Shown one piece after another: positions 16,440 through 19,270 of a stretch of DNA of 40,883 bases. The position numbers and the translations under genes were made by a program. The stretch is from Actinomycetes bacterium. GTDB lineage: Bacteria > Actinomycetota > Actinomycetes > Jiangellales > Jiangellaceae. Below the pieces are notes generated by a model that made no database searches, was not told the origin of the DNA, and saw only the letters and a list, made by a program, of their open reading frames with translations. Numbering within the stretch: position 1 is the stretch's first letter; each line of letters opens with the position of its first letter. The stretch covers positions 1 through 40,883 of the forward strand of contig JAJYTA010000019.1 of NCBI GenBank assembly GCA_021793295.1. The letters run 5' to 3'.

Positions 16440-17327
16440 GTGTCGGACGTCATCGTCGGGGTGGATGGTTCAGCCGAGAGCGCAACGGCTTTGGAGTGGG
16501 CTGCCGATGCCGCGGCTCAACGCGGCAGTCCGCTGCGCATCATCTACGCCCTGCACATGCCGCTGGTCGTGATGCCGTTCGATCGCACGGTTCCGTTGCC
16601 GCCCAGCGACGACCTCCGTGACCGCGCCGAAGCCCTGTTGAAACACGCGCAAGAACAGGCCGAGCATCACGTTCCCGGCCTGCAGGTGCGCACCGAACTC
16701 TCGTTGCGCCCAGCCACGCCGACGCTGCTCTCCGCCTCCGAAGACGCTGACCTCGTGGTCGTAGGCAGTCGAGGGCTCGGCATGTTCGGCTCGGTGTTCC
16801 TGGGATCGGTGAGCACCCGGGTCGCGGCCCGGGCCTCGTGCCCCACGGTCGTCGTGCGGGAGGGGTCGTCCTCGCCGAACGCCGACGGCCCCGTGCTGGT
16901 CGGCGTCGACGGTTCGGTCCATGGTGCCGCTGCGATGCGCTTCGCCTTACGCGAAGCCAAGCTTCGCGACGCCCCGGTGATCGCGCTCACCGTGTACTCC
17001 GGACCGGAGTACGTCGTGACCTTGCACGACGCCAAGCTCGCCCAGCGCATCGACGACGACGCCCGCCGCGACGCCACCCGGTTGGTTGCCGATGTCCTGG
17101 AGCAGGCCCGGGAGGACGACACGGCGAACGTCGACGTCGAGCCTCGCGCGGTGCCGGGGCATCCGCCGACCGTTCTGGCCGACGCCGGCCGAGAAGCCGC
17201 GTTGACGGTGGTGGGCTCTCGTGGCCGCGGCGGGTTCCGGGGCATGCTTCTCGGCTCGGTGAGCCTGGCCGTCCTGCACCACGCCACCCACCCGGTGGCC
17301 GTCGTACGCGCTACTGACGGCGACTGA
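16440..17327 (+). CDS. Tandem-domain universal stress protein
   Basis: A 295-residue protein with two UspA domains. Domain 1 (about 1-140) starts VIVGVDGSAESATALEWA and ends VVGSRGLGMFGSVFLGSVS; domain 2 (about 148-292) starts VLVGVDGSVHGAAAMRFA and ends VVGSRGRGGFRGMLLGSVS. Each has the G-2x-G-9x-G(S/T) ATP-binding signature, so ATP binding is expected. The tandem form is typical of DosR-controlled stress proteins in Mycobacterium. GTG 16440 follows AGAGGAG by about nine bases. Its 3' end overlaps the end of the convergent IclR gene by 17 bp. Confidence 0.95.
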   Translation: MSDVIVGVDGSAESATALEWAADAAAQRGSPLRIIYALHMPLVVMPFDRTVPLPPSDDLRDRAEALLKHAQEQAEHHVPGLQVRTELSLRPATPTLLSASEDADLVVVGSRGLGMFGSVFLGSVSTRVAARASCPTVVVREGSSSPNADGPVLVGVDGSVHGAAAMRFALREAKLRDAPVIALTVYSGPEYVVTLHDAKLAQRIDDDARRDATRLVADVLEQAREDDTANVDVEPRAVPGHPPTVLADAGREAALTVVGSRGRGGFRGMLLGSVSLAVLHHATHPVAVVRATDGD

Positions 17328-18105
17328 CGGCGCCGCTTCCGCCTCCACCCAGGCGCCGGGTCAACTCCACAGCCGTCGCATCGACGGCGGCTGCCACCGA
17401 CGACCAGTCGTCACCCTCTACCGCCTCGCGCGGGAACGTGACGGCGACCGCGGCCACCGGGTAGCCGGTGTGGTCGGTCGCAGCTGCGGCGACGGAAGCC
17501 AGGCCCGGCGTCACCTCACCGTCTTCCGTCGAATAGCCGCGCTGGCGCACGCCGCTGAGCACCCGCCGCAACTCGGACAGGCTGCGCGGCCCCGCGCCGT
17601 GCCGGTCGGCGAACGACGCCGCGTCCGGGAACAGGGCACGGACCTGTGCCGGTACCAGACCGGCCAGGATGGCGCGACCGCTGGCCGTCAGTTGGGCCGG
17701 CAGGCGCACGCCGACGTCGGTGACCAGCGAGGGTCCGCCCGGGACACGTTCCTCCAGCAGGTACAGCACCTCGCGGCCGTGCAGGACCGCCAGGTGCGCA
17801 CTGTGGCGGACGTCGTCGACCAGGCGGCCCAACAGCGGCCGGGCGAGCCTGGCCAGCGGGGCTTGACGCGTATAGGCCGACCCGAGTTCGTAGGCCGCCA
17901 GCCCCAGCCCGTACCGGCGCTCCTCGTGCAGGTGCACCACGAGCCCTTCGCGTTCCAGTTCGGCGAGCAGGTGATAGACCGTGGAGCGCGGCAGGCCGAG
18001 TGCTTCTGCGATGGCCGAGGCCGGAGCCGGTCCGCCGAGCCGCGCCAGGTGCCGCACGATCCGGATCCCGTGCCGTAGCGCGGGCACCCTGCTGCTCTGC
18101 CCCAT
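17311..18105 (-). CDS. IclR-family transcriptional regulator, probable hut regulator
   Basis: A 264-residue IclR regulator. The winged HTH is at about 8-70 (LGGPAPASAIAEALGLPRSTVYHLLAELEREGLV, with the recognition helix RSTVYHLLAEL) and the effector domain at about 85-250 (LYLLEERVPGG, VRLPAQLTASGRAILAGL, RGYSTEDGEVTPGLASVAA). ATG 18105 has GAGGAG six bases upstream. Its own start is preceded by palindrome GTCTGGCATCCCAGAC (18117-18132), and nearly the same palindrome lies before hutH, so I infer autoregulation and control of histidine degradation. The inducer would be histidine or urocanate, which sequence cannot tell. Confidence 0.9.
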   Translation of the reverse strand: MGQSSRVPALRHGIRIVRHLARLGGPAPASAIAEALGLPRSTVYHLLAELEREGLVVHLHEERRYGLGLAAYELGSAYTRQAPLARLARPLLGRLVDDVRHSAHLAVLHGREVLYLLEERVPGGPSLVTDVGVRLPAQLTASGRAILAGLVPAQVRALFPDAASFADRHGAGPRSLSELRRVLSGVRQRGYSTEDGEVTPGLASVAAAATDHTGYPVAAVAVTFPREAVEGDDWSSVAAAVDATAVELTRRLGGGGSGAVSRRQ

Positions 18106-18132: not shown

Positions 18133-18148
18133 ATTACCGCCTGCCGTT

Positions 18149-18226
18149 AAATGATCATGTTCACTAGGCATTCGCCTGCTGCACCACCCGTGTACGCCTC
18201 TTGGTGCAGGCGAACGCCTCGTGGTG
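18149..18226. repeat. Dispersed 78-bp palindromic element, copy B
   Basis: Copy with the best-formed outer stem: GCACCAC (18181-18187) pairs with GTGGTGC (18221-18227), enclosing CGCCT...AGGCG. It begins AAATGATCATGTTCACTAGG as copy A does. Unlike A and C it is not at a gene end but 43 bp upstream of the IclR start, beside the larger palindromic array. Confidence 0.85.
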
Positions 18227-18336
18227 CTTCGGGGGCGTGCTGCCGTTCGTGGATGGGACGACCGTTCAGCGGCCCGCGTGGCACCGGCTGTCGGATGCCG
18301 ATTCGCTGAGCTGGGCGCAGGCAGCTCGAGATGGTC

Positions 18337-18737
18337 GTGAAGATCGTCATGGTATGGCCGGCCGAGCGAGCCGGTCACGTCCGCCGGCCGTGAAGATCGT
18401 CGTGGGAAACCTGACCGCATGAGGGGTTGTGAAGATCGTCGTGCCCCAAAGTGCGCCCTATAGCGGCATTCTCCGGCACGACGATCTTCACAACCTCCGA
18501 AACCAGCACTTCCACGCACGACGATCTTCACCATTGACCGGATCAGGTGATCCTGAGGCTCATCGCCGGATCAGCCTGGCCGAACCAGCCGGTTGTGAAG
18601 ATCGTCGTGCGGCAACCCGCCGAACCAGGCAGTCGTGAAGATCGTCGTGCCCCAAAGTGCGCCCTATAGCGGCATTCTCCGGCACGACGATCTTCACGAC
18701 CCCCCAAACCAGCACTTCCACGCACGACGATCTTCAC
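18337..18737. repeat. Array of GTGAAGATCGTCGTG palindromes with two 103-bp tandem units
   Basis: Nine copies of a 15-bp motif: forward GTGAAGATCGTCGTG at 18337 (one mismatch), 18390, 18429, 18595 and 18635; reverse at 18477, 18517, 18683 and 18723. Two units (18429-18531 and 18635-18737) are 103 bp each and differ only in an 8-bp linker. Each holds a long hairpin: arms 18425-18445/18475-18495 (21 bp perfect) and 18632-18651/18681-18700 (20 bp perfect), with an identical 29-nt loop containing GCGCCCTATAGCGGC. One stem position is T-A in the first and C-G in the second. No coding function is supported; short open frames through it merely translate the repeats. Confidence 0.9.
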
Positions 18738-19016: not shown

Positions 19017-19208
19017 ATGTCTACCAACCACCACGCCCCGCACGCCGACTCCGCGGCGCCGTCGAACCGGGCTGCGCGTCGCGCGCAGCGCAAGGGCAAG
19101 GCGGCACCGATCACCCCGACGACGGCGTCGCTGAGCAAGCGCCGTGAAGTCCGGCAGAGCCAGGTGATGGCCCAGCAGCGGTTCAAGGGCCGTCGCGGCA
19201 ACCGCTGA
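19017..19208 (+). CDS. Small basic protein of unknown function
   Basis: A 63-residue protein that I do not recognise. The N terminus is polar (MSTNHHAPHADSAAPS), then RAARRAQRKGKAAP and KRREVRQSQVMAQQR-FKGRRGNR give a strongly basic, probably disordered or nucleic-acid-binding C-terminal two thirds. There are no cysteines, membrane segments or signal peptide. ATG 19017 has a very good AGGAGG at 19008-19013, which supports real translation. It lies between the IclR gene and hutH in the same direction as hutH, but an 18-bp palindrome separates them, so it is probably its own unit. Ribosome or RNA association is a guess from charge only. Confidence 0.65.
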   Translation: MSTNHHAPHADSAAPSNRAARRAQRKGKAAPITPTTASLSKRREVRQSQVMAQQRFKGRRGNR

Positions 19209-19228: not shown

Positions 19229-19270
19229 CGGCCGCGATTGTGTCTGAAATCCCAGACACAATCGCGGCCG
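19229..19270. promoter_or_regulatory. Long palindrome before hutH containing the IclR-type operator
   Basis: A perfect 18-bp inverted repeat: CGGCCGCGATTGTGTCTG (19229-19246) with its complement at 19253-19270, loop AAATCC. The core GTCTGAAATCCCAGAC (19242-19257) matches the palindrome before the IclR gene. It lies 21 bp after the small gene and 41 bp before hutH, so it may act both as a terminator and as the hut operator. Confidence 0.7.

Follow-up and report, generated by a model that had tools for sequence, protein, structure and literature searches.

REPIN-like palindromic repeats in an intergenic cluster of a Jiangellaceae genome

Background

The closest described systems are the REPINs and the CGTC-tagged REPs. 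REPINs are doublets of REP sequences that form hairpins, and in the GI doublets the next-neighbour distance is 71 bp (Bertels and Rainey 2011, PMC3116915). The CGTC-tagged REPs have a stem of 8-9 bp starting with AT, a loop of 4-5 nt and a CCA tail, and the text of the paper describing them does not mention Actinobacteria (Di Nocera 2013, PMC3733652).

The repeat discussed here is a 71-bp palindrome from a high-GC genome of the family Jiangellaceae (the source genome, 4.67 Mb in 320 contigs, G000 in our numbering), which we met as an array in contig C36, a stretch of 40,883 nucleotides that we call the window. It is like a REPIN in its inverted and near-invariant ends of about 16 bp, its less conserved spacer, its extragenic location, its hairpin and its tandem clusters, which can include flank (PMC3116915). 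Thus the inverted ends at a fixed distance with a hairpin, the invariance of those ends and the high extragenic copy number of REPINs are all found here. The figure of 71 bp is also shared but is a different measure, as here it is the overall length of the unit, with the arms 48 bp apart from start to start. There are further differences. No RAYT, the usual mark of membership, is present in the source genome or its order, arrays of extra half-units in the same direction are frequent, and two distinct half types are paired as a rule. The arm has no GTAG tag and, taken singly, shows no obvious imperfect palindrome of the tagged kind; by eye a small GCCG...CGGC inverted repeat can be seen after many arms.

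Our repeat and the CGTC-tagged REPs are both dispersed as palindrome dimers, and for neither is a dedicated transposase known. Heterodimers are common in the CGTC-tagged group and the pairing of two half types resembles them (PMC3733652). CGTC is also present in the arm here, but the consensus of 44 copies has no such stem, loop or tail after it.

Bacterial MITEs are likewise short and non-coding with inverted ends, but we see neither a target-site duplication nor a parental insertion sequence. DNA uptake sequences number hundreds to thousands per genome, often single and often in genes. They too are short exact motifs that occur in both orientations, and near the ends of genes their inverted pairs can fold into a hairpin, but the 189 copies found here are too few, nearly all are in palindrome arrays and none was seen within genes of the source genome.

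The array in the window

The array occupies positions 18337-18737, between the gene for an IclR-type regulator (17311-18105, minus strand) and a divergent ORF of 63 aa (19017-19208, plus strand) that has no Pfam match and is followed downstream by the genes for histidine ammonia-lyase and then urocanase. It includes nine copies of a 15-bp motif, eight of them exact, in the order >>><<>><<. The outermost, at 18337-18351 on the plus strand, is an outlying arm with one mismatch (GTGAAGATCGTCATG), and it is followed by an extra direct arm (18390-18404, plus) that is 39 bp ahead of the left arm of palindrome 1. Palindrome 1 (18425-18495) is 71 bp long and comprises GGTTGTGAAGATCGTCGTG, 33 bp and CACGACGATCTTCACAACC, with a DNA stem of 21 bp; an extra arm at 18517-18531 on the minus strand faces it from 40 bp beyond its right arm. 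Palindrome 2 (18631-18701) is also 71 bp long and has the same 63-bp core, having arisen by tandem duplication. It is faced from both sides by extra arms, one at 18595-18609 (plus), 40 bp ahead of its left arm, and one at 18723-18737 (minus), 40 bp beyond its right arm.

Between the two 63-bp hairpins (18429-18491 and 18635-18697) identity is 100%. Folded as DNA they have stems of 21 and 20 bp, with z-scores of -9.4 and -9.3 and none of 200 shuffles equally stable, and the duplicated units match at 96% over 106 nt with starts 206 bp apart. The coordinates, the nine copies, the hairpin identity and the stem lengths given in the initial annotation all held on recounting, as did the difference it had reported just outside the hairpins, where the outer pair is T-A in one and C-G in the other.

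The repeat unit in the source genome

The genome-wide count that the initial annotation had proposed gave 99 and 90 matches to the 15-bp motif at no more than one mismatch (189 in all), with 0 and 0 for the reversed pattern, a difference well outside chance. The motif is almost always part of one 71-bp palindrome, GGTCGTGAWGATCGTCGTG-N33-reverse complement, in which two 19-bp ends GGTCGTGAWGATCGTCGTG are set face to face with 33 bp between them, for the most part free in sequence. We estimate about 45-50 copies, a number that is approximate because the draft genome has contig ends within copies. The exact palindrome, with A or T permitted at position 5, is found at 39 places, and 44 distinct copies were used for the statistics on entropy and pairing.

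The geometry is strict. Opposed arms are 48 bp apart from start to start in all 41 pairs, and such a pair is present in 38 of the 41 clusters. Extra arms in the same direction are mostly at steps of 40-41 bp and are all directed at the palindrome; arm steps of 31, 38, 50 and 53 bp are also present, and neighbouring arms that face outward are never less than 56 bp apart. The smallest copies are lone palindromes, and homology between loci ends at the edge of the repeat cluster, with about 60 bp of flank also held in common by a minor subfamily (L013, L014, L041, L069 and L070).

Over the 44 copies the mean entropy is 0.09 bits in the arms and 1.29 bits in the inner half, or centre. The 29-nt loop, which had been described as conserved, is indeed identical in the two window copies, but genome-wide it falls in the variable part of the unit, and its identity in the window therefore reflects the tandem duplication. 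The two halves are not combined at random, as a GCC half is joined with a GCG half in 39 of 44 copies and the most seen in 20,000 re-pairings was 33.

With regard to pairing in the stem, 12 of the 19 pairs never vary. At arm position 5 the two sides read A-T in 25 copies, A-A in 10, T-T in 7, C-T in one and T-A in one, so that 18 of 44 are mismatched and there is one double change. Pairing at this position is not maintained, since A or T varies independently on each side, and the lack of compensation at the only variable stem position argues against selection on pairing. The covariation score was reached by 27 of 500 shuffles. We have rejected compensatory evolution of the stem for the 44 copies, and the T-A and C-G pairs of the window hairpins, previously read as compensation, are an isolated difference between tandem duplicates.

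Genomic placement and evidence for insertion

The 41 clusters are essentially intergenic. Beside them are various unrelated core genes, ftsZ, dnaE, greA and rpsB among them (names read from translations), and the clusters have no common neighbour or transposase gene beside them; no gene flanked by arms was found. Copies adjoin these genes in every orientation, with 8 of 31 clusters, the window's included, between divergent genes. The median distance is 103 bp to gene 3' ends as against 399 bp to 5' ends (p = 2e-7, with genes called by our own simple GC-frame script).

The clearest case of insertion, and a single one, is in G002, a genome 75% complete, where a glycosyltransferase gene contains a 72-bp palindrome in frame. 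The product of this gene exceeds its G003 and G016 orthologues by about 24 aa, the length of the palindrome, and does so exactly where the palindrome lies. Other sites can be compared where relatives have no element. Between the IclR gene and hutH there is a short gap without an element in G016, G018 and G020, and between ftsQ and ftsZ, where the source genome has two clusters, there is none in G020 or G021. A role as hut operator was considered and rejected, as there are orthologous hut loci without the array. In the case of L203 and L214 the sister species G001 lacks the element and carries a different perfect palindrome instead, which could indicate a conserved positional role rather than insertion. 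Of about 8 syntenic loci no more than 3-4 show a hairpin of any kind in G001, and conservation of position across species is therefore not general. No target-site duplication was found in 14 lone palindromes (mean 2.14, against 2.34 for shuffled partners).

Relatives and turnover

The order is represented in GTDB by 22 genomes, the same 22 as the family. Comparison with these relatives, another of the checks suggested at the outset, gave diverged copies in three other genera, at other places in the genome, with arms in common and an unrelated centre, and several orthologous sites that are empty. A sequence-only model of the repeat (R1) finds diverged copies in G002 (10 matches), G003 (20) and G020 (62), with fewer in G016 and G018. 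G004-G015, G017 and G019 have 0-1 matches. In G002 and G003 most copies are lone palindromes, 70-73 bp long and with arms as in the source genome, and G020 has arrays with 52- and 70-bp steps within composite elements. In the sister species G001 neither the model nor the exact palindrome finds any member of the 71-bp family. G001 carries palindromes of its own, in at least three families, none of which is present in 290 kb of source-genome loci.

In a sample of 394 genomes of the class, exact patterns gave matches only in G000, G002 and G003 and, beyond the order, one probable chance match in G185. The palindrome pattern had 0 matches in contigs of named genomes, a set from which the source's own records may be left out, and a HutH query among named genomes found no relative above 77%. 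Among phages, plasmids and viral contigs there was no meaningful match, only chance 23-bp matches in mycobacteriophage genes. As judged from the sequences compared, palindromes broadly like this one are common in the order and turn over fast, whether by insertion, replacement or evolution in place.

Interpretation

We read the locus as probably a cluster of REPIN-like mobile palindromes that has grown locally by tandem duplication; the mobility is suggested by sequence comparison. Of the four options offered by the initial annotation a REPIN-type mobile palindrome cluster fits best, and a structured RNA is disfavoured. The RAYT/TnpA-REP transposase that it proposed to look for is found neither in the source genome nor in any of the 22 genomes searched in the order: Pfam PF01797, the Y1/RAYT family, has 0 matches there, with control genomes positive. 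The mover is thus not a Y1 (RAYT/IS200) transposase recognisable by PF01797. An activity encoded elsewhere would recognise the two ends at their fixed distance, in duplex DNA or in a single-stranded hairpin, and would copy or move the unit without target-site duplication, so that the ends are kept and the centre is free to drift. Once inserted, a unit may gain half-units in 40-41-bp steps by slippage or unequal crossing-over, or a whole cluster may be doubled in the same way, of which the two window palindromes, 206 bp apart, would be an instance. Copies would survive mostly near gene 3' ends, where they harm least.

The near-invariant arms, free centre and fixed spacing would also be expected if the arms were half-sites, maintained for a host function, of a sequence-specific DNA-binding protein (a nucleoid protein or a regulator) whose binding geometry sets the spacings of 48 bp and 40-41 bp. 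At position 5 the two arms vary independently of each other, which would be expected of half-sites rather than of a stem, and by calculation a step of 40-41 bp is about four helical turns. However, the positions are not conserved, with the hut and ftsZ sites empty in relatives and no copies at all in G001. Copies adjoin unrelated genes in all orientations, steps of other lengths also occur, and an in-frame insertion within a gene is unexpected for an operator, so we regard a binding hub as unlikely. Less likely again is a hairpin acting in RNA, as a bidirectional terminator or a structure at mRNA 3' ends. The strong fold, the bias towards gene 3' ends and the presence of another perfect hairpin in G001 at two orthologous sites would all suit such a role, but there is no T-run after any of 159 arms (although terminators without U are possible), and the window region contains nothing that resembles a terminator. 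The uncompensated mismatches in the stem and the clusters between divergent genes also count against it, and at gathering score Rfam gave only tRNAs in the sources searched.

A classical MITE, derived from a DDE insertion sequence, no longer autonomous and bounded by 19-bp terminal inverted repeats, would account for the perfect inverted ends, the dispersal and the precise insertion. We consider it very improbable, as the 14 lone palindromes lack a target-site duplication, a constant 71 bp with a freely varying centre is not what a single insertion sequence leaves in its deletion derivatives, and a non-exhaustive look showed no parental element. That the two window palindromes are tandem duplicates might suggest a chance local duplication without wider meaning. 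This is refuted by the 189 matches over tens of contigs and the diverged versions in other genera. The refuting outcome named in the initial annotation, a structure found once, did not occur, nor did we find a match to any repeat family already described.

Going beyond the REPIN-like cluster itself, we suggest tentatively, as one possibility and not the likeliest, that mobile palindromes in this order form a replicating population, in which a non-Y1/RAYT enzyme reads two half types at a fixed distance, and whose families turn over so fast that two congeneric species have no copies of this one in common. REPINs are thought to depend on RAYTs, and a REPIN-like population with no Y1 transposase in 22 genomes of its order would mean either a second kind of mover or persistence after loss of the mover. 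Given the fixed geometry of 48 bp, the rule of two half types and the clean contrast between the sister species, the missing protein can be searched for.

Other repeats and loci

The window has a second dispersed hairpin family, at 18147-18228 (AATGATCATGTTCACTAGGC...GGTGCAGGCGAACGCCTCGTGGTG), with at least 7 similar copies from G001 and one from G016; AATGATCAYGTT, from this family, occurs 10 times in 290 kb of source-genome loci. There is also a perfect hairpin, ATTGTGTCTGAAATCCCAGACACAAT, at 19240-19270 upstream of hutH. As G001 has ATTGTGTCTGGCATCCCAGACACAAT at the same place this hairpin looks ancestral, unlike the array.

At L212:14521-15988 a gene of 169 aa between ftsZ and ftsQ is flanked by two clusters of the 71-bp palindrome repeat; the stretch also has matches between ftsZ and ftsQ in G016 and G018, and G001 has other sequence there. 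Short degenerate tandem repeats near some clusters (L226 and L203, for example GACCAGGACCGGCCATCAC) look like decayed half-units.

The composite elements of G020 (L186-L195 and L275-L277) are non-coding and about 600 bp long, with two different ends, one of them GCTCTTGTGACCTTTCCGTGGGTGAGTTCATGGG, and arm arrays in the middle, and several adjoin a TAAATGATCATGTTTGGTGGG hairpin. Among the palindromes of G001 are perfect ones of the form CCCATGATCATCGGCACTTTCC...GGAAAGTGCCGATGATCATGGG, often with ATATAG at the centre (L334:18168-18238, L332:9681-9738 and L347:4431-4489), and further families with the ends GTCACCTGATC and TGATCATCAAC.
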